Below, piece by piece: positions 2,262-25,178 of a stretch of 33,995 nucleotides of DNA. Origin of the DNA: Bacillota bacterium (GTDB taxonomy: Bacteria > Bacillota > Sulfobacillia > Sulfobacillales > JAIMBI01); NCBI GenBank assembly GCA_021846565.1, contig JAJZWS010000032.1, positions 1 to 33,995 on the forward strand, written 5' to 3'. The notes below the pieces were generated by a model. That model had not been told where the DNA came from. It saw nothing but the letters and a program-made list of their open reading frames with translations, and searched no databases. The position numbers were made by a program, and so were the translations under genes. The first letter of the stretch is position 1. Each line of letters starts with the position of its first letter.

Positions 2262-4322
2262 ATGGCGAAGAGGGACGGGGCAGAGCGGGAGCCGGCCTGG
2301 CTCCATGCCCTCATGTTGGATTGGGCGGATCCGGTGCTGCAGTTTGTGCACGATCACTTGGGTGACGCGCCTCTGGCGCAGCAGGTAACCCGCGAAATTT
2401 TCTTGCAACTGGTGCATCCCGCTCGCGACGAAGCGCCGCACGCGGGCGAACTGTTCGAACTGGCGGAGGTTCGCATGGCACGGCATCGCACCAACTCGCC
2501 CGTGGCCGAGGGGACCTGGCAGGCGGCCGTGATGCGCCTTGCTCCCGAAGACCGCCGATGGTGCTGGCTCGCGGCCTACGGCCACTGGTCCTTCGATGTG
2601 CTGGCCGCCAGCGCGTCGCTGCCACCCGACACGGTGGGCTTGGCGCTGGAACGGGTGTGGTGGGGGTTGGGTTCCACGGGCGCCCGGCCGCATTCTGAGG
2701 GCGAATGGCGCCAGTGGCTGGCCGAGGTGGGGCCGCCCCCGCCTCCCGTGGGACTCACGTTTGACTGGTCGGCTTGGAACCCCTGGGCCCGTCCGGCTCG
2801 ACCGCCCAGCCGGTTTCGGCCGCGCCACGCGCTGATGGCCGCCGCCGTGCTGGCGGTGGTGGTCGTAGGGGCCGTGGTGCTGCGGAATGACGCGCTGGCG
2901 GCGGTGCCCCCGCTGCCGTTTGCCGTCGCACCCCGCGCGACGGTCCTGAACCTGGTGGTGGATGGCGAGCCCGCCGTGGCGGCGGATCCGTTCGGGTCTT
3001 CCACCCTAGCCCACCTCGCGGCCAAGGCGCTGGCGCCGGGGCTTACTTCCTACCGCATCTTCACGGAGAGCGCGACCAAGCGGTCCACCGCGTATGGCAT
3101 CGGGAGGCTGCAGGCGGGGTGGGCGCGGGGTCCCCATGGCTTGGTGATGATTCTGCGGATCTCCCACGGCCCCGCGCCCGTGGTGTACAACCTCGCCAGC
3201 CACGGCCAGCGCGTCGCGGGCACCGTCGAGCCCCGCGGCTACGTGCTGTATCGGTTCACCGGCCAAGCCGGGGCCGTCCGGGTCAACGCGTCGGGCCACG
3301 CGACCATCTTTGCTTGGGCGGCCGCCTCCGGACCCCACCGGTGGATTCACGTGGACAGCGGGACGTGGAGCGTCGCGGCTGGTCAACCCGTACCTCGCGG
3401 GGCCGACGGCTCCTGGGTGTATCAGGCGCCGCCGAGCGCAGGCGGTCGGGTGCAAGGGGTGCTGCAAAGCGGACTTTTGTGGATGCATCTCAACCGGTGG
3501 TGGCTCCTGCCTACGCGCGGCCCGGCCATCCCGCTGGTTCACGTGCTGACGAACCAGAGCGGCTCCTTTGAGACCATGAACCCCGCCACCGCGTATCCGG
3601 GGTCCGCCAACGAGGTGCTGGCCAGCACCGTGGGTTCCGGGACCTCGACCGATCTCTGGTGGAATCTGTCCCAAGATCGGTGGGGACACACCACGGCGCT
3701 GGCGGCGCCACTGCCGTTGGTCCTGGCGCCGCGGGCCGGCTGGGTGTCGTTTGGCCCGTTTCCCCAACTTCTCACCTACGCGTCCCCGCCCTCGATGCTC
3801 ACGATGAAGCGCGGCATCAATACGCTCACGGCATGGCAGCACTGGGTGTTCGGCCCGATGGTGCAGGCCAACAGCAAGACGACGGCAGTGGGCACGTATG
3901 GCTGGCGGCACGGCACGTTCGTGCCAGCGCGGGTGGTCGAGACCGGCGAAGTGGCGGCCGTCGCATTTCCGGACTGGGGGCCCACCTATGTGGCCAATCT
4001 CACGGCCCCCAGCCACGGCAGCTTCAGCAACGAGGTTGGGGGGCCGGCCACCGTGAGCCTTACCGCGGCCAACGGCGGCTATCGCACGACGGTTCCGCTC
4101 AGCGCCACCGAGACGCTGACCGTGGAGCGGCGCTGGCTGGTGGTGCAGAGCCCAAGCCAGCATGATGCCCGCGTGGGCTGGCCAAACGGGGGCGGACAGC
4201 TCACATGGCACACCGTGGCGCCTGGCACGATGCCCCAAGTGGGCAACGGTTTTCTGTGGTGGGAACTGAAGGGCCACACCTACGTGTGGATGCCGCCGTT
4301 CATGTCCCTGGCGGGTCCGTGA
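2262..4322 (+). CDS. Membrane protein: sigma-like cytoplasmic domain plus large exported domain (copy 1)
   Basis: The protein has 686 aa. Residues about 17-51 (LMLDWADPVL, then QQVTREIFLQL) resemble ECF sigma region 2. Residues about 91-132 (MRLAPEDRRWCWLA, then TVGLALERV) resemble the region 4 helix-turn-helix. A Pro-rich linker leads to one membrane helix at about 189-207. The remaining ~480 residues should lie outside the membrane; they are rich in Trp, Gly and Thr, probably beta-structured, and I recognise no family. The end reads GHTYVWMPPF. The ATG at 2262 has AAAGGTGG about 13 nt upstream. The next gene is a full-length paralogue overlapping by GTGA, so the two are probably co-translated. 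Function is unknown; a membrane-tethered regulator sensing an external signal is an inference. The sigma-like domain is degenerate and may not bind DNA or RNA polymerase. Confidence 0.7.
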   Translation: MAKRDGAEREPAWLHALMLDWADPVLQFVHDHLGDAPLAQQVTREIFLQLVHPARDEAPHAGELFELAEVRMARHRTNSPVAEGTWQAAVMRLAPEDRRWCWLAAYGHWSFDVLAASASLPPDTVGLALERVWWGLGSTGARPHSEGEWRQWLAEVGPPPPPVGLTFDWSAWNPWARPARPPSRFRPRHALMAAAVLAVVVVGAVVLRNDALAAVPPLPFAVAPRATVLNLVVDGEPAVAADPFGSSTLAHLAAKALAPGLTSYRIFTESATKRSTAYGIGRLQAGWARGPHGLVMILRISHGPAPVVYNLASHGQRVAGTVEPRGYVLYRFTGQAGAVRVNASGHATIFAWAAASGPHRWIHVDSGTWSVAAGQPVPRGADGSWVYQAPPSAGGRVQGVLQSGLLWMHLNRWWLLPTRGPAIPLVHVLTNQSGSFETMNPATAYPGSANEVLASTVGSGTSTDLWWNLSQDRWGHTTALAAPLPLVLAPRAGWVSFGPFPQLLTYASPPSMLTMKRGINTLTAWQHWVFGPMVQANSKTTAVGTYGWRHGTFVPARVVETGEVAAVAFPDWGPTYVANLTAPSHGSFSNEVGGPATVSLTAANGGYRTTVPLSATETLTVERRWLVVQSPSQHDARVGWPNGGGQLTWHTVAPGTMPQVGNGFLWWELKGHTYVWMPPFMSLAGP

Positions 4323-6331
4323 CGCGGCGCATCGCAGACCCCGCCTGGGTCCAACCCCTTATGATGGAGTGGGCGGATCCCGTCCTGCACAGCATCTGGG
4401 CGCGGACAGGCGACGTGGACCGGGCGCAGTTCCTCACGCGCCAAGTGTTCTTGCGCGCCGTGCATCAGGCAGGGCCGGAGACCCCGGCCCTGGCCGACCT
4501 GTTTCAGCTCGCGGATCGGCTGACGCCCAACGGGCGGGTGCCGGCGGCCCCGTGGGAGTCGGGGATCCGAAGACTCTCCCTGCGCGACCGTCGTGCGTGT
4601 TGGCTTGCTCTGTACGGCCGCTGGTCGTTTCGGGACCTGGCGGCGGCCGAAAACCGGTCCACCCCCTCCCTGATGGCCACCCTCGCGCGCCTCGCGCACG
4701 TGATGGGGGAGGGCGTGCCGGCAGAGGACGAGGGGGCGTGGCGCGCTTGGCTGTCGGAGCATGGACCGCCACCGCTGCCGGTGGGGGTCCGTTTTCGCTG
4801 GGGCGACTGGGACCCGCACGCGCCGCTGGAGCGGACCCGGGTCATCCGGCCGCGGCACGTGCTGGTAGCCGCGGCCGTGGCGTTCATGCTGGGCGGCTGG
4901 ATATGGCACACCGAGGCCGCCCGGGCCGCCCAGCGGGCGGCCATCCCGCGCCTGCCGTTCGCGGAGCAGCCGTCGACTGCCATGTTGCACATCATCGTGG
5001 CGCATGGCGTGACGGTGGCGCGTCGCGCGTTTGGCAGCACCTCCGCGACGCCGGTGCCCGGCGAGCAGCTCACGGCCGCCTTCACCCGCTATGACATGGC
5101 CACCACCAGTCCCGGCCACCCCACGCGCGCCTACCAGGTGGGGTCGCTGCACGTAGCGTGGGCGCGCAACCAGGCCGGGGTGGGACTGATTGTCGCAGAC
5201 CCTACGGGAGCGCCGGTGACGGTGGTGAATCTGGCCAGCGGGGGTACCGCGGTGCACGGGGCGGCCGAACCGGGGTATCAAGTTTATGGGTTCACCGGCT
5301 TGGCCGGGGCGGTGCGCGTCACGGAGGCCGGCCACAACACGATCCTGGCGTGGGCGGCCGGGCTCAACACGGGCATCGAAAGCGGGGCGTGGAGTCCAGA
5401 CGCGGGCCAGTGGCAGCCGCGCGACCCCAATGGGAGCCGCGTGTATGCGCCCCCGCCAGGCCCTGGGACTGCACTGGGCGTGCTGGCCGACGGCGTGCTG
5501 TGGCAGACGCAAACGGGGTGGTGGCTGCTCCCCCCCAACGGCGCGCCGCTGCCGATGATCCTGCCGCCCGGCGGTTCTAGCGCTCCTCAGCAAATCGTGA
5601 CCCTGTGGCCCCCGTATCCCGGGGTCACGAACGAGGTGATGGCGTACGAAAATTGGCAGGCCAACGGGGGAGGCCCCGCCTCCGTGTGGTGGAACCTGGC
5701 CACCGAGCGCATGGGTGTCGTGCCGAACTCCCTTCCTGTGCTCACCGTCGATGCCGGATGGATCGAAGGGGGACAGACCAACGCGGTGCGGTCGTATGGG
5801 TCTCCTCCGGCGACATTGCCCCTGTCGCAAGCGTTCGTGACGGCGGGGGCCTGGGCGCAGTCGCTGTTTATCCAGTCGTATGCGACCCACTCGTCTGTGT
5901 ACGGCACATACGACTGGGCTCGGCGCACGTGGACGCCGGCCCCGGTTCAGCAGCAGGAGGTTTGGGGGGTCGTCCCGTTCCCGGAATGGGGTCCCACCTA
6001 TGTGCGACCGGGCGGGTGGGCGGGTACCAACACGGGTCTCGCGCTCGATGGTCCTATGACCATCCGGCTGACCCCTGCCAATGGCCGCGCCCCGACGTCG
6101 TTCGCGGTGTCCGTCCGGCAGACCTTCTTCGCCGGCGCGCGGTGGGTGGTTGTCGCGTCCCGCCTGCACCCCAACCTGGTGCGCGTCGGATGGCCCGACG
6201 CGGCGGGGCGCCTCCTCTGGCACGGGGTGCAAGCACCGGTGGGCACCGTGATTCATGCGACCACGGACTTCCTGTACTGGACCTCCGCGGGCCACACGTA
6301 CATCTGGGTGCCCCCCTTTCAACCGTACTGA
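4319..6331 (+). CDS. Membrane protein: sigma-like cytoplasmic domain plus large exported domain (copy 2)
   Basis: A full-length paralogue of the preceding gene, 670 aa. The GTG at 4319 overlaps the upstream TGA (GTGA), and this start aligns the N-terminus with copy 1 (DPAWVQPLMMEWADPVL here, EPAWLHALMLDWADPVL there). The region-2-like part is at about 14-48, the region-4-like part at about 85-126, and the single membrane helix at about 179-196. The exported part aligns along its length with copy 1: both share FTG.AGAVRV, WWLLP, FP[DE]WGPTYV and a C-terminal GHTY[VI]W[MV]PPF. The longer in-frame extension to 4205 lies entirely inside copy 1 and is rejected. Function is unknown. Tandem duplication and divergence suggest paired sensors or a heteromeric complex, which is inference. 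Confidence 0.7.
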   Translation: MTRRIADPAWVQPLMMEWADPVLHSIWARTGDVDRAQFLTRQVFLRAVHQAGPETPALADLFQLADRLTPNGRVPAAPWESGIRRLSLRDRRACWLALYGRWSFRDLAAAENRSTPSLMATLARLAHVMGEGVPAEDEGAWRAWLSEHGPPPLPVGVRFRWGDWDPHAPLERTRVIRPRHVLVAAAVAFMLGGWIWHTEAARAAQRAAIPRLPFAEQPSTAMLHIIVAHGVTVARRAFGSTSATPVPGEQLTAAFTRYDMATTSPGHPTRAYQVGSLHVAWARNQAGVGLIVADPTGAPVTVVNLASGGTAVHGAAEPGYQVYGFTGLAGAVRVTEAGHNTILAWAAGLNTGIESGAWSPDAGQWQPRDPNGSRVYAPPPGPGTALGVLADGVLWQTQTGWWLLPPNGAPLPMILPPGGSSAPQQIVTLWPPYPGVTNEVMAYENWQANGGGPASVWWNLATERMGVVPNSLPVLTVDAGWIEGGQTNAVRSYGSPPATLPLSQAFVTAGAWAQSLFIQSYATHSSVYGTYDWARRTWTPAPVQQQEVWGVVPFPEWGPTYVRPGGWAGTNTGLALDGPMTIRLTPANGRAPTSFAVSVRQTFFAGARWVVVASRLHPNLVRVGWPDAAGRLLWHGVQAPVGTVIHATTDFLYWTSAGHTYIWVPPFQPY

Positions 6332-15993: not shown

Positions 15994-16759
15994 ATGGCCG
16001 ACCAGAGGGTGGACGCCCTCCTCGGGCCCCTCGTCGACAAGCAGGACCGGATTCGCCGGGCGCCCTCCCTGCCCGATGCCAGTCTGGAGTCGTTGTTCGG
16101 CGACTATACGCTGCGGCACGCGCACGCCACCACCGCCATTGAAGGCAACACGCTGACCGTCCACGAAGCGCAAGAGGTACTCGAAGCGGGGACGACCATC
16201 CCGGGAAAATCCCTGGGGAACACATCGAGGTTGTCAATGCGCACGCCGCATGGCTCTGGCTGCGCCAAACGATCGGCCAGGGCATCCCGTTCGTCGAACA
16301 CACCGGGTTGGAGGTCCACCGGCGGCTGATGCAGGGACTCCTCGGGGATGACGCCGGCTTTTATCGCCGATCCCGATCTATATTCGGGGGTCTCGTCACG
16401 TTCCGCCGACCGCGATCACCGTGATGGATCTCATAGCGGCGTGGGCCATCTCCTACACGCGGGGTGCCGGAGATCAGAACCCCGTGGCGTTTGCTGCCCA
16501 TGCCCAAATCGTCCTCGCGGGGATCCATCCCTTCGCCGATGGGAACGGTCGAACCTGTCACCTGGTGAACAACGCTCTGCTGCTGGAGAATCATTATCCG
16601 CCGGCGCTTTACTCCCTGACCGCCCGCAGCGCGTATCTGAGCGCTTTGCAACGGGCTCAAGGGCACCCCGATCCCGCCCCGTTCATCACCGTCACCGCCA
16701 CGGCGACGGAGGGGATGCTGGATCGCTGGCTTCACCACGCCGACGCCAACGCGCCATAG
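15994..16759 (+). pseudogene. Fic family protein, two frameshifts
   Basis: Fic proteins transfer AMP or a related group to target proteins, and some are toxin-antitoxin toxins. The first frame gives the Fic N-terminus (FGDYTLRHAHATTAIEGNTL, then TIPGKSL), including the IEGN typical of this group. Near the G-run at 16215-16218 the reading must shift, continuing as GEHIEVVNAHAAWLWLRQT and FYRRSRS. A second shift near 16374-16380 leads to YIRGSRHVPPTAITVMDL and the last frame. That frame carries the catalytic HPFADGNGR (16526-16552) and ends at 16759. All parts of a full-length gene are present, so decay is recent, unless both shifts are sequencing errors. No antitoxin partner is adjacent. Confidence 0.85.
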
Positions 16760-20385: not shown

Positions 20386-20582
20386 CGGGAAGGCTAGACT
20401 TCACGCGATACGCCCACGGGCCGGCCGCACGCCGGGCCGCGGGTGTTGGCGGGCTCGTCGCTCCCTGGGGCGATGCGCCGGCACGGCCCGATATGCCTCA
20501 GCCGGGCCTCGGCAACGGCCAGCAGGCCACCCAGAAGAAAAGTAGCCGACCCTGCGCCCTGATCGGTGCGCGGTGGGGTTGT

Positions 20583-21347
20583 CTACGTCGAAAGGTAGCG
20601 CGCAATGCGGTCGCGGTTTGACGCGAGGCTGGAGAACTGCTTGTCGCAGACGTCGCTGAGCCGCGCCAGGACCTTTCGGGTGATCGATTCCTGATCCTCG
20701 AAGATGGCGACGGCCTCGTGCGAGAGTTGCCATTTCTCGAACTGCAGCAGCGTGATGGTGGCATCGCGCACGCGATCGTCGTTCGACAGCGCGAAAACGG
20801 TTGTGGGCGTGCCTGCGGGGCGGTCGATGCGGGCATCGGCCACATATTTTCCCCCGGGGTCTCGGGGGTCGTGCCAGTCAAATGTTAACCGGTCGCTGGG
20901 GATCGACTCGCGCAGGAGGCTTCGGAGGTCCTCCAGGAACGTGGACCGCGCGTACTCGCGGGACAAGTACGACACATCGGAGATCCTCAACAGGCCCTGC
21001 ACGAAGTTGAACAGCGCATCCCCGTACTGTTCACCGGGGACCGACAGCAACAGTTCGCCCTCCCGGTCCTCCATGAAAAAGCCGGCCAGCGCGGCATCGA
21101 TGATCCGTCGGCGCGTGCCCCGATGGAGATCCGCGTCATCGATACTGTAGGTGAGGTGCATCAGGGTATGTCCCTCGTCGGACAACTGCCAGGAAGCGCC
21201 GTCCCGTCGGAGCACGACGACCAAGTGGTCCCCATCATCAAACTGAAATGGTGTAAGCACCCGGTACCGGCCCAAGCCCTCCGGCACGAGGTCCACCTGG
21301 GCGGAAACCTTGGCGCGCAGGCTTTGCAGCATCTCCACTGGTTCCAC
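20583..21347 (-). CDS. DUF1828/DUF1829 domain protein
   Basis: A 254-aa soluble protein of unknown function. The N-terminal part (about 25-110) matches the DUF1828 pattern: RYRVLTPFQFDDGDHLVVVL, then WQLSDEGHTLMHLTY and RRRIID. The C-terminal part (about 150-250) corresponds to DUF1829, with FDWHDPRDP and a final helical segment. No catalytic motif is evident to me. The GTG at 21347 has GGGAGG 7 nt upstream. The start is 12 nt after the stop of the partner gene, so the two form an operon. The setting among decayed toxin genes suggests an accessory module such as toxin-antitoxin or defence, which is an inference. Confidence 0.75.
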   Translation of the reverse strand: MEPVEMLQSLRAKVSAQVDLVPEGLGRYRVLTPFQFDDGDHLVVVLRRDGASWQLSDEGHTLMHLTYSIDDADLHRGTRRRIIDAALAGFFMEDREGELLLSVPGEQYGDALFNFVQGLLRISDVSYLSREYARSTFLEDLRSLLRESIPSDRLTFDWHDPRDPGGKYVADARIDRPAGTPTTVFALSNDDRVRDATITLLQFEKWQLSHEAVAIFEDQESITRKVLARLSDVCDKQFSSLASNRDRIARYLST

Positions 21348-21359
21348 GCGCTCACCTCC

Positions 21360-21803
21360 CTAGAACAGTCTAGTTTGAGCGCCCGGTGGGAGTTCGATGT
21401 GGGCATCCTGCTGCATGCACGTGAGCGCCCCTTCAAAGTCACCATAGCGATTGGTGGGCTCCGCGTACCCATCCTCGTTCAATCCCACCGCCTGATACCG
21501 CTCGGTCGCTTCATGGATGTGAAACCCAACAAATCGCTCGCCCTCTAGGCGATTGGTATGCCATCGCCCGCTCTCCGCTACCCGCACGGCCAGTATAACC
21601 GAGAAGTCCAGGACGAACCTCGCGTTCTGACGAAGGATCAGGCGATATGTGTTTCCAGCGTCGCCCAGCAACGTCGCTTCGCCCTCGGTGTGCCCGGCCT
21701 TGGGCTTCATCCTGAAGGCTCGGTCGCCGAGACCGAACGGAAGCACCTTGCGCTCCTGCAACAGCGTGGCAATTTCGCCGTCCGTATAAATTACCGGCAT
21801 CAA
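21360..21803 (-). CDS. DUF6978-like small protein, partner of the DUF1828 protein
   Basis: A 147-aa soluble protein resembling the family I know as DUF6978, recalled from pattern and not checked: YRLILRQNARFVLDFSVIL, then GFHIHEATERYQ, and GYAEPTNRYGDFEGAL near the C-terminus. The TTG at 21803 and ATG at 21800 are adjacent possible starts; GGAGGTGAGG lies about 10 nt before the TTG. It is the first gene of a two-gene operon. A promoter-like pair sits upstream at 21834-21863. No catalytic residues are obvious, although the HIH motif is notable. It could be the antitoxin or sensor partner, but function is unknown. Confidence 0.65.
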   Translation of the reverse strand: MMPVIYTDGEIATLLQERKVLPFGLGDRAFRMKPKAGHTEGEATLLGDAGNTYRLILRQNARFVLDFSVILAVRVAESGRWHTNRLEGERFVGFHIHEATERYQAVGLNEDGYAEPTNRYGDFEGALTCMQQDAHIELPPGAQTRLF

Positions 21804-21833
21804 CCTTGCCTCACCTCCATCGAATGTCTGAAT

Positions 21834-21863
21834 ATTATCAAACCTAAGGAAGTCCGCCTACAA
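21834..21863 (-). promoter_or_regulatory. Candidate promoter of the DUF6978/DUF1828 operon
   Basis: On the minus strand TTGTAG (21858-21863) and GATAAT (21834-21839, preceded by TTT) are separated by 18 bp. The -10 element matches five of six consensus bases. This is the most A/T-rich stretch near the gene, and transcription would begin about 5 to 10 nt before the GGAGG. Confidence 0.5.
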
Positions 21864-22066
21864 CCGGAGGCGGACCGTGGTGAACCAGGTAGGTGGCCGT
21901 CCACAGGGACCCGAACTCGTTGACGATTGACGATTCGGCTCGGCAGGAATCTCGCAGGCGGTCGCGAAGACCAGTCCATGACGACCATGATCTTTCCCCA
22001 CGGGACCCGTGGAACGCCTCGCGTCAGCGGCTGGGGCTCCGCATCCGGGACTCGGATGCTGCGAGG

Positions 22067-22981
22067 ATGGTAGTGACCGTGCTGGCGCAAGGCAGCGGCG
22101 AGCCGGTGGGCGTGCCGGCTCCGCTCGATGCCCTGGCGGCCGAAGGGTTTCCGGTGGTGCACGTCCGCCTGGGGTCCACGGTGCGGGTGGAGTGGCCGCT
22201 GGAACCGGTGCGTCACAGCCAGGACGCCCTGACGGCGTTTGCGCGCTTCGCGCAGGAGGCCGTCTGGCCATCCGTCCTCAGTTCCCTCATCGTCCCGGAC
22301 GGGCGTCTCTTCGCGGCGTATGTCCCGGCCGTCTGGATCGGATCCGACGGCGCCCAGGTGCAGTGGCCCATGCTGGGCCTTGGTCTGTTGCTGGCGGCGC
22401 TGGCGCCGCCACCCTGGTTGGTGCTGACCGAGCGGGCCGTGCCGGCCCCACTGGTGGCCGAGCCGCGGATCGTGGCACACCGGCTCCAGTGCCTCACCGA
22501 GCGCCTGGGTTGGACCGTAGAGGGTTCTCGGCCGCCAGTGTCGGCGGCGACGGTCCGGTGGGGCCGCGGTACGGTGGTGGTGGTGGGTCGCGCGCCCGCA
22601 CCCGAATTCGTGGACGAGCTGGCGCACCGGCTGGCCCCGACGCCCGTGGTGGCGTCCGAGGTGGTGCACCCCTCGGGGAGGGACCCCTTGCCGGTGAATC
22701 TGGCCGTGTGGCCCGAGGACGAACTGGAGAGGGCCTGGCCGGCTGCCTGGGGCGCGGTGGTTCCCCCCGGGGACCGGGCGCCGGCCTGGGTCACCTCCTT
22801 GGTGCCCCAAGTGGGCGGGGACCAGCCCGACGCCTGGCCGGCCGTGACGCCGAATGAGTATGAGCGGGGGATGGCGCTGGCCACCTATGCGCGCGCGCAC
22901 CAGACACCTTTGGACGACGCGCATCCCGTGAGCCAGGCCCTGGCCCAGCTGTTGGCCCAGCGCTGTGAGCGCCCGTCATGA
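22067..22981 (+). CDS. Hypothetical protein in the glycosyltransferase-glf cassette
   Basis: I do not recognise this protein, 304 aa from the ATG at 22067. A hydrophobic stretch near the middle (MLGLGLLLAALAPPPWLVL) could be a membrane or buried segment. The rest is rich in Ala, Pro, Val and Trp with no catalytic signature I can name. The frame stays open upstream to a GTG at 21893, so the start is uncertain; the extra residues look charged and poorly conserved. The stop overlaps the glycosyltransferase start (ATGA), so the two are translationally coupled. A helper in the same glycan pathway is inferred from position alone. Confidence 0.5.
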   Translation: MVVTVLAQGSGEPVGVPAPLDALAAEGFPVVHVRLGSTVRVEWPLEPVRHSQDALTAFARFAQEAVWPSVLSSLIVPDGRLFAAYVPAVWIGSDGAQVQWPMLGLGLLLAALAPPPWLVLTERAVPAPLVAEPRIVAHRLQCLTERLGWTVEGSRPPVSAATVRWGRGTVVVVGRAPAPEFVDELAHRLAPTPVVASEVVHPSGRDPLPVNLAVWPEDELERAWPAAWGAVVPPGDRAPAWVTSLVPQVGGDQPDAWPAVTPNEYERGMALATYARAHQTPLDDAHPVSQALAQLLAQRCERPS

Positions 22982-24078
22982 GGAGGCCGGTGGTGTGGCT
23001 GTCGGCCGGCATGTTCGCGTGGCAGGGACGGCGGTTGGCGGACAACGCCCTCTTGATGCTGCGTGAGTGGACCGCCGAGCCGTCGGAGCACATGTTCATT
23101 CACATGGATCCGGTGAGCGTGGCGGGCGGTGTGCAGGCGCTCACCTACCGGGCGGCGCACGCCGGTCCGTTCTGGCGCGTTCTACCCGGCCACGCCCCGG
23201 CGCATGCCGACACGTTGGGCCGGCGGGCCGTCCCGGTGGCCCCCGGAAATCTGCACCAGAGCCTGCGGGAGCAGCCGCTGGTGGTGCACACCACCTCGCT
23301 TCACCTGAGTACGATGGGCGCGTTCTGGCGCCCTCTGCATCCAGACGTGCTGGTGTATGAGGTGATGGAAAATGTGGCGGACATGGATCCACCGCTGGCG
23401 GCCCTGCATCGGACGGTGTCGGCCGAGGCGGACGTCGTGGTGTCGATCTCCGACGCGACCACCGCGACGCTGGCGACGCCGCCCGAACGGGTGCTGGAGT
23501 TCGGATCGGGTGTGGACATGAGCTTCTGGCGCCGGCCGCCAGCGGTCCCGCGCTGGACCTTCGGGTTTTTCGGCAATCTCATGAATTGGATTGACTTCGA
23601 CTTGCTGGGGGCGCTGGCGCGGGCCCTGCCCGACGACCGCATCGTGCTCATCGGGCCTGTCTCTCCGGACTCGACCGCGCGCGTGTCGGCCCTGTTGGCG
23701 AATCACCGCCAGGTGGTGTACCAGCCCGCCGTGCCGTACGCCGCTCTCCCGGACTTGGTTCGCCACATGGCGGTTGCTTTGTTGCCCCGCACCCATGCCC
23801 CCCGGTCGCTGGCGGCCGACCCGCTGAAGCTCTACGAGTACCTTGCCGCGGGCAAACCCGTGGTCACCAGCATCCCCGTGCCCGATGCGGTGGCGCCGCA
23901 CGTGTACTACGGCGCCACCCGAGGCGGGTTTGTGGAGGCCTGCCGTCAGGCCCGCGACGATTGGCGCACAGGGCGGCACCGACCCTGGTCGCCTGAGGTG
24001 CGGGCCCTTTTGGAGGAGCGCAGCTGGCGCCGCCGGGCTACGGCCCTCTGGGATCGGGCCCTGGCCCGGATGGCGTAG
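22978..24078 (+). CDS. Glycosyltransferase, GT-B fold (GT4-like)
   Basis: A 366-aa predicted cytoplasmic or membrane-associated glycosyltransferase. The C-terminal nucleotide-sugar-binding domain shows FGFFGNLMNWIDFDLL (start of the domain), then IVLIGPVSPD, and the motif ADPLKLYEYLAAGKPVVTS with the acidic/Glu pair typical of GT4. The overall layout is like the teichuronic acid protein TuaH. The ATG at 22978 overlaps the preceding stop by 4 bp, and the UDP-galactopyranose mutase gene follows after 2 bp. Transfer of galactofuranose or assembly of a galactofuranose-containing surface glycan is inferred from that neighbour. The donor sugar cannot be read from the sequence. Confidence 0.8.
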   Translation: MRRPVVWLSAGMFAWQGRRLADNALLMLREWTAEPSEHMFIHMDPVSVAGGVQALTYRAAHAGPFWRVLPGHAPAHADTLGRRAVPVAPGNLHQSLREQPLVVHTTSLHLSTMGAFWRPLHPDVLVYEVMENVADMDPPLAALHRTVSAEADVVVSISDATTATLATPPERVLEFGSGVDMSFWRRPPAVPRWTFGFFGNLMNWIDFDLLGALARALPDDRIVLIGPVSPDSTARVSALLANHRQVVYQPAVPYAALPDLVRHMAVALLPRTHAPRSLAADPLKLYEYLAAGKPVVTSIPVPDAVAPHVYYGATRGGFVEACRQARDDWRTGRHRPWSPEVRALLEERSWRRRATALWDRALARMA

Positions 24079-24080
24079 GC

Positions 24081-25178
24081 GTGGCGTTGGTGGTGGTGGT
24101 GGGCGCGGGCTTTTCCGGGGCGGTGGCGGCGCGAGAGCTGGCAGAAGCCGGCCATCGCGTCGTGCTGGCGGAACGACGGGACCACCTCGGGGGCAACGCC
24201 TACGACGAGCGCGATGCGGCCGGTGTCTTGGTGCATCGCTACGGGCCGCACATTTTCCACACCCAGGCCCCGCCGGTGTGGGACTACCTGTCTCGCTTCA
24301 CGGCTTGGCGGCCGTACGAACACCGTGTGCTGGCGTCCGTCGGCGGCCAGCTCCTCCCGTTGCCCATCAACCGGACCACCATCAATCGGCTGTACGGCTG
24401 GGATCTTTCGGAAGAGGATGTTCGGCGGTACCTGCAGCGCGTGCGCGTTGACCGTAAGCCGTTGCGTACCAGCGAGGACGTGGTGCTGAGCCGCGTCGGC
24501 CAGGACTTGGCGGACCGGTTCTTTCGCGGCTACACATTGAAGCAGTGGAACCGCGAGCTTAGTGACCTGGCTCCCGGTGTCGCCGGACGCATCCCGGTGC
24601 GGGTGACCGAGGATGACCGCTACTTCGAGGACCAGTACCAGGCCATGCCCCGGGACGGATATGCGGCGCTGTTCAGACGCCTCGTGGACCATCCGGCCAT
24701 TGCCGTCGGCCTCGGCGTGGAGGGTCTCGACCTTCCCGAACGCCGCCAGGCCGCGCTGGTGGTGTACACCGGTCCGCTCGACGCGTACTTTGGCCACGGG
24801 TTGGGGCGGCTGCCATACCGGTCGATTCGGTTCGAACACCAGCATCTGCCGGGCGTCCCGCTGGTGCAGCCGGTGGCGACCGTCAACTACCCAGGGCCTG
24901 AGCCATACACGCGCATCACGGAGTTCAAGCACCTCACCGGGCAGCGGCACTCGGGCACATCCATCGTGCGAGAGTACCCGACCGGCACGGGGGATCCGTA
25001 CTATCCCGTGCCGGGCCCGGAAAGCGACCTCTTGGCGCGCCGTTATCGAGCGCTGGCGGCCCGCGAGTCCGGGGTCGTGTTTTTGGGCCGGCTTGCGCAG
25101 TATCGCTACCTCAACATGGACCAGGCGGTGGCGGCGGCGCTGGTGGCGTCCAAGCGGATGGTGAGAAATCTGGGGTGA
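24081..25178 (+). CDS. glf: UDP-galactopyranose mutase
   Basis: FAD-dependent mutase converting UDP-galactopyranose to UDP-galactofuranose (EC 5.4.99.9), 365 aa, the family's usual length. The N-terminal dinucleotide-binding motif is VVGAGFSGAVAARELAEAG, with the ERRDHLGGNAYD that follows in Glf proteins. Further signatures are HRYGPHIFHT, LPLPINRTTINRLYG, FFRGYTLKQWNRE, RYFEDQYQAMPRDGY and the late NYPGPEPYTRITEFKH. The C-terminal FLGRLAQYRYLNMDQAV completes the FAD site. The GTG at 24081 starts 2 bp after the glycosyltransferase stop with no clear ribosome-binding site, so coupled translation is likely. It supplies the donor for galactofuranose glycans. Confidence 0.95.
   Translation: MALVVVVGAGFSGAVAARELAEAGHRVVLAERRDHLGGNAYDERDAAGVLVHRYGPHIFHTQAPPVWDYLSRFTAWRPYEHRVLASVGGQLLPLPINRTTINRLYGWDLSEEDVRRYLQRVRVDRKPLRTSEDVVLSRVGQDLADRFFRGYTLKQWNRELSDLAPGVAGRIPVRVTEDDRYFEDQYQAMPRDGYAALFRRLVDHPAIAVGLGVEGLDLPERRQAALVVYTGPLDAYFGHGLGRLPYRSIRFEHQHLPGVPLVQPVATVNYPGPEPYTRITEFKHLTGQRHSGTSIVREYPTGTGDPYYPVPGPESDLLARRYRALAARESGVVFLGRLAQYRYLNMDQAVAAALVASKRMVRNLG

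Follow-up and report, generated by a model that had tools for sequence, protein, structure and literature searches.

The closest described relative of the gene pair considered here is PDC-M24, a two-gene candidate already catalogued in PADLOC-DB 2.0.0. A full-text literature search for "PDC-M24" returned no paper, hence neither a mechanism nor a validation of this system was found. According to the available parts of the respective publications, PDC systems in general are unpublished or unvalidated candidates (PMC11811056, PMC12988326), and two other PDCs assayed in one study showed no activity (PMC12409345). In the accessible portions of the literature found, the families DUF1828, DUF6978 and DUF1829 receive passing mentions, apart from work on HipA. 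There, as far as the accessible text goes, the protein DS-6B carries DUF3037 together with DUF1829 and has a HipA kinase as its partner in a validated defence system (PMC13092281); in the HipA/DUF3037 pair (PDC-M66), deletion of HipA abolished defence, and deletion of the DUF3037 gene was toxic (PMC12548924). This module (HipAD, DS-6, PDC-M66) resembles the pair described below in having two genes and a second protein that shares DUF1829, and its DUF3037 protein is the antitoxin, again by the parts available (PMC12548924, PMC13092281). It differs in that our first protein, A, is no HipA kinase (the Pfam matches of A and of the 25 relatives aligned with it include no kinase family) and in that the second, B, carries DUF1828 instead of DUF3037.

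The pair lies in a contig of a Bacillota bacterium, all 33,995 nucleotides of which were analysed and are called the window in the following. Its features are:

21810-21818, minus strand: GGAGG-type ribosome-binding site of gene A, read from the sequence.
21360-21803, minus strand: gene A, 147 amino acids, DUF6978 family, PDC-M24A-like (open reading frame; PHROG 27326, 4.5e-17; iterated profile).
21561-21562, minus strand: deletion junction, 36 bp (12 codons) being lost in frame from gene A (DNA alignment with the homologous locus L006; motif conservation).
21351-21359, minus strand: GGAGG-type ribosome-binding site of gene B, within the 12-nt gap between A and B.
20583-21347, minus strand: gene B, 254 amino acids, DUF1828 N-domain and DUF1829-like C-domain, PDC-M24B (open reading frame; Pfam, PADLOC, PHROG).

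Gene A, which starts with TTG (an ATG is the next codon), precedes gene B, which starts with GTG, and 12 nt separate the stop codon of A from the start of B. The two-gene operon of the preliminary description is thus borne out by open reading frames on the same strand, the short gap and a ribosome-binding site for each gene; the strand (minus), which had been left out there, is added here. A promoter of the pair's own, also claimed there, was not recovered, since a scan for sigma-70-type promoters gave 0 sites.

B belongs to DUF1828 (Pfam, 7e-24) and matches the PADLOC model PDC-M24B (6.7e-17, with protein residues 26-147 aligned) and PHROG 5059 (5.4e-23). Of its earlier label, DUF1828/DUF1829, the first half is therefore secure; Pfam DUF1829 did not match B of the window, and a DUF1829 match is found at the equivalent position of the homologous B of plasmid pRSB223 (L005, 1.7e-33). 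Window A gave nothing above cut-off with Pfam and no match with the PADLOC models. However, a search of three profile rounds seeded with a plasmid-borne DUF6978 protein gathered 83 open reading frames that include window A, and 12 of the 25 aligned relatives of A match Pfam DUF6978 (best 5.2e-7). Because the iterated profile joins window A to DUF6978, A is placed in this family, and its description as DUF6978-like holds despite the missing Pfam match.

By sequence comparison the pair is related to PDC-M24, if divergent, and hence not new: the families and the gene order are the same, window B matches PDC-M24B, and homologues of A match PDC-M24A. The link for A runs through a phage homologue (L002), whose A matches PDC-M24A with 1.2e-8 and is retrieved by window A in phmmer with 3.4e-13. 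Adjacency of A and B (12 nt in the window) is shared with PDC-M24, whereas window A itself goes unmatched by PADLOC, being too divergent for its models as judged from these searches. The subfamily of window A has a motif of the R-x-N-G-K-S-H type where Pfam-type members have R-x-D...N-P-D-G. The models for A may miss the window subfamily, which extends to archaea and several uncultured phyla; this was seen for window A only. The suspicion that the pair might be a new system is accordingly upheld as to recurrence across unrelated genomes and mobile elements, and falls as to novelty, PDC-M24 being listed by PADLOC.

A scan of a genome collection with window B turned up 35 loci with homologues, which are spread over Bacillota, Chloroflexi, Planctomycetota, Methanomicrobiales, Ignavibacteria and other groups. 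In 28 of these 35 loci of other genomes A lies directly upstream of B in the same order (phmmer), a pairing beyond chance; among the remaining seven, a contig end truncates the locus in L024 and L040, remnants of A persist in four (L023, L025, L029, L032) and one (L038) has no trace of it. Within the phylum of the window (398 genomes), DUF1828 occurs in 19 genomes and DUF6978 in 11, and of the 21 DUF1828 loci in this sample 18 have A upstream, 11 recognised by Pfam and seven by a profile of the window subfamily; one of the three loci without A lies near a contig end (L044). Where both genes were scored as intact they are on the same strand and -35 to +47 nt apart in 127 of 128 loci, a set in which duplicates were kept and the window locus is included. 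The pairing of A and B is close to obligate. Convergent arrangements were seen in L178 (1510-2750) and L188 (1254-2460), in which A, instead of preceding B, meets it tail to tail from the other strand.

Presence of the pair is patchy even among close relatives. One genome of the genus (G399) has it at the same site; in a second (G398) the pair is absent and both neighbours are kept, the matched stretches lying about 325 bp apart, and in a third (G400) the S9 peptidase gene runs directly into the pdxA-like gene. Two of four genomes of the genus thus lack the pair with the upstream flank retained, in agreement with the accessory location originally proposed. That A and B might be ordinary chromosomal genes of a housekeeping pathway could be suspected from the mostly metabolic surroundings in the window, but it is contradicted by this patchiness, which recurs in the 19 DUF1828-bearing genomes among 398 of the phylum, and by the copies in phages and plasmids; we give it next to no credence.

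Comparison with L090 indicates that a whole segment of the window (20386-25175), comprising the pair and three further genes, varies within the genus. A DNA search of the window's own genome found one copy of the pair; domain searches revealed that the genome has another DUF1828/DUF6978 pair, divergent from the first, on contig C88 (L088 4237-5354, minus strand), with an open B of 232 amino acids and an A devoid of its N-terminal part.

No defence island surrounds the pair in the window: in a PADLOC scan of its ten neighbours only a broken Fic gene was defence-like, and the other match was to a weak carotenoid-enzyme model. This SoFic-like gene is about 4 kb away from the pair. It lies at 15994-16756 (plus strand) and is apparently split into two open reading frames, the second of which matches the Pfam Fic, SoFic and PDC-S04 models, as for a decayed defence-like gene. 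Farther off, two adjacent large proteins (2262-4322 and 4205-6331, plus strand) appear to be paralogues in tandem, with N-termini that resemble each other and a single hydrophobic segment.

The pair is carried by phages, satellites, plasmids and chromosomes of unrelated bacteria and archaea. With B of pRSB223 as query, tblastn retrieved 18 phage and nine plasmid records, and window B matched three Pseudomonas phages; E. coli genomes gave no match to the DNA of the plasmid pair. Of 15 phage or phage-plasmid records examined, 11 have an integrase or recombinase gene downstream of B, at most three genes away, and in nine of these 11 a gene annotated as repressor-type lies upstream on the same strand. 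In Lactobacillus prophage Lj965 a regulator and a protease gene are followed by A and B, then by one further gene, an annotated superinfection exclusion gene and the integrase. The exceptions to the integrase placement are Pseudomonas phage 5399 (where cI lies two genes before A and no nearby gene is named as an integrase), Halorubrum virus Humcor1, Staphylococcus phage UPMK_1, in which A is broken, and Pseudomonas phage PACT201, in which both genes are. On plasmid pRSB223 (L005 1505-3034) the gene of a CHAT-domain protein (Pfam, 5.1e-8) is located just upstream of the pair. The position between repressor and integrase in several phages would suit a regulatory module of prophages and plasmids, for example one that controls lysogeny and has no toxicity; yet the pair also resides on plasmids and on chromosomes without phage genes nearby, the window included, and Pfam reveals no DNA-binding domain in it, which makes such a role improbable.

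A shows a conserved polar cluster, R...H-x-N...H-x-H, which is near-universal in the aligned sequences and is described here for the first time. Among 49 distinct proteins, and numbered after the intact copy of L006, H107 and H109 are present in all 49, N96 in 48, R86 in 47 and H94 in 46. The predicted structure of A is beta-rich (pLDDT 90.3, pTM 0.85), and the placement of the polar cluster on it suggests an active site or metal site. No confident fold could be assigned: the best hit of the fold search had a Z of 5.9 (a DUF3836 protein), the PDB contained no structure match below an E of 0.3, and a single unnamed viral protein was found at 1.6e-3. A search of the sequences of solved structures returned chance-level hits only, for A (7b6e, E 0.63) as well as for B (8y75, E 0.028). 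The toxin TumE (PF20126) has a visually alike motif order, R-[FY]-N...H followed by H-x-H; homology to A is not supported, as the hhalign probability of 0.2 was below that of the best of 60 shuffled or reversed controls (3.9), with a TumE profile that is shallow (six proteins), and the likeness is retained as a lead only.

The model of B (pLDDT 89.9, pTM 0.51) consists of two halves, for which Foldseek alone found nothing under an E of 0.001. For residues 1-128 the fold matches are type III secretion chaperones and YbjN-like proteins, among them Spa15 (Z 10.2, rmsd 2.6, 110 residues aligned). This predicted fold is thus shared with the type III secretion chaperone, CesT and YbjN proteins, whereas P33, D40 and D57, invariant among 57 B proteins, are a feature of the B family. 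Residues 131-254 match Can2 (Z 9.5, rmsd 3.2, 116 aligned), NucS (Z 8.9), Card1 (Z 8.2) and, with a Z of 9.8 but an rmsd of 7.1, PspGI, chains that we take to be PD-(D/E)XK proteins; many PD-(D/E)XK chains score between 7 and 9.8, receiver domains also reaching about 7. B is thus predicted to combine a type III-chaperone/YbjN-like domain with a PD-(D/E)XK-like domain that is without the usual ExK. The B alignments (57 proteins) contain no conserved ExK on the strand after D171, so that the catalytic D...(D/E)xK pattern is lacking. Inversely to the roles proposed below, B could be the effector, cutting nucleic acid with its C-terminal half, and A its sensor or inhibitor; this draws on the matches to PspGI, Can2 and NucS and on the retention of D171 in 55 of the 57 proteins. 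Nuclease activity of B is doubtful, however, because no ExK follows D171, and the pattern of gene damage speaks against such an assignment as well.

In comparison with L006, window A lacks 36 bp in frame, the DNA being otherwise about 95% identical. The deletion removes conserved positions including R86, N88 and G89 and retains H94 and N96; from the conservation of these residues, window A is probably inactivated and the locus an inactive remnant with an intact putative antidote, B. Similar lesions were found elsewhere. In Planctomycetota, where an intact relative (L017) is available, a damaged A accompanies a full-length B in L022 (frameshifts), in L023 (a large internal deletion) and in L025, where A is cut after about 40 codons and runs into B. 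Stops in A upstream of a full-length B occur in L029, L118, L120 and L144, and further loci with damaged A and intact B are L138, L160, L091, L094 and L088, the second copy in the genome of the window. The weakest cases are L094 and L091, where only the N-terminus is missing, and L144, with a late stop only. By hand reading, A is broken and B intact in about ten independent cases, a number to be read with the reservations that B-seeded searches favour intact B and that some lesions come from draft or metagenome assemblies, where they may be errors. The converse, an intact A with a broken B, was not found except in L037, which is cut by the contig end and was left out of the asymmetry together with L100, which has lesions in both genes. 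In L182 (2515-2934) the conserved motif of A is interrupted by a TAG stop, which may be a lesion or a case of readthrough; this A is otherwise intact, as is the B downstream.

An automatic classification of the B regions, grouped at 90% DNA identity, gave 108 clusters whose classes are rough (the window was scored as both-intact, and five full-length A failed the strict motif pattern alone). Both genes are intact in 73 clusters, and a partial B beside an intact A occurs in a single cluster, the contig edge L037. In the other 34, B is intact with a partial A (13), no A open reading frame (7) or an A failing the motif pattern only (5), and nine have no A and a partial B, mostly DUF1828 half-proteins. 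Clusters seeded with A (n=24) comprise 19 with both genes intact, five with partial A and none with broken B. As B is 1.7 times longer than A, chance lesions would be expected in B more often; the seed bias is limited because the Planctomycetota lesion cases share related loci. As long as B persists, A can be damaged, and this speaks against A as the antidote of a toxic B: an intact B where A is destroyed would be unexpected if A restrained it, and with the missing ExK this leaves little room for B as the effector. The one-sided loss fits A as the costly part of the pair.

The reading preferred here, to which we assign a probability of roughly 0.5, is that the pair is a two-gene module of the toxin-antitoxin type that would protect its carrier from phage, with A as effector and B as antidote and probable sensor, the copy in the window being an inactive remnant. 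These roles are proposed because of the one-sided loss of A and the precedent of the HipA/DUF3037 antitoxin (DS-6B with DUF3037 and DUF1829), as given in the available parts of the sources (PMC13092281, PMC12548924). As in type II toxin-antitoxin systems, the operon is small, comprises two genes and resides on mobile or accessory DNA. A would be a harmful effector, an enzyme or a metal-binding, nuclease-like protein that depends for its action on the R...H-x-N...H-x-H cluster; B would restrain it by the chaperone-fold N-domain and/or the probably non-catalytic PD-(D/E)XK-like C-domain. Upon infection A would be released and growth would stop, and protection might take the form of superinfection immunity or abortive infection. 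We infer the toxicity of A, its binding to B, the trigger and the target. A defence or toxin-antitoxin role, as envisaged in the preliminary description, is the best reading; at the locus itself there is no defence island and A is probably crippled.

The same anatomy, the copies on plasmids and phage-plasmids and the repeated loss of A with B kept would also be expected of a toxin-antitoxin pair of the addiction type, which would stabilise phages, plasmids and islands and have no direct anti-phage role. The frequent placement next to integrases, once by a superinfection-exclusion gene, and the listing by PADLOC as a defence candidate favour defence, but neither is decisive; addiction is rather unlikely in our view, if a serious contender. 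As PDC-M24 is part of a widely used defence catalogue, the analysis provides it with a directional model, in which A would be harmful and B protective, and with named residues; it also identifies, by name, temperate phages whose lysogeny module contains the pair, and proposes phage proteins as possible counter-measures to it.

The latter are DUF1828-only proteins of viral contigs, which end near the domain boundary of B and are not accompanied by an A gene. They were found in viral contig scans at the following loci:

L183, 2943-3371: DUF1828-only protein.
L185, 2956-3390: DUF1828-only protein.
L186, 2992-3387: DUF1828-only protein.
L187, 2992-3369: DUF1828-only protein.
L189, L195, L197, L198 and L147/L148: further DUF1828-only loci.

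These proteins may act as decoy antidotes, may be remnants or may put the domain to an unrelated use. It is conceivable, if speculative and on the whole unlikely, that PDC-M24 is a working anti-phage toxin-antitoxin system with a new type of H-x-H toxin and an antidote made of a chaperone-fold and a dead PD-(D/E)XK domain, the N-domain of which phages use alone as a stolen antidote against this defence. The proteins of L183 and L185-L187 are about 64% identical to the N-domain of B from pRSB223 (L186: 64% over the domain). In L183 and L186 some homology continues beyond the stop, a hint that the truncation is recent. Two of these loci have a methylase gene immediately upstream, of the D12-class adenine type in L187 and of the C5 cytosine type in L185.
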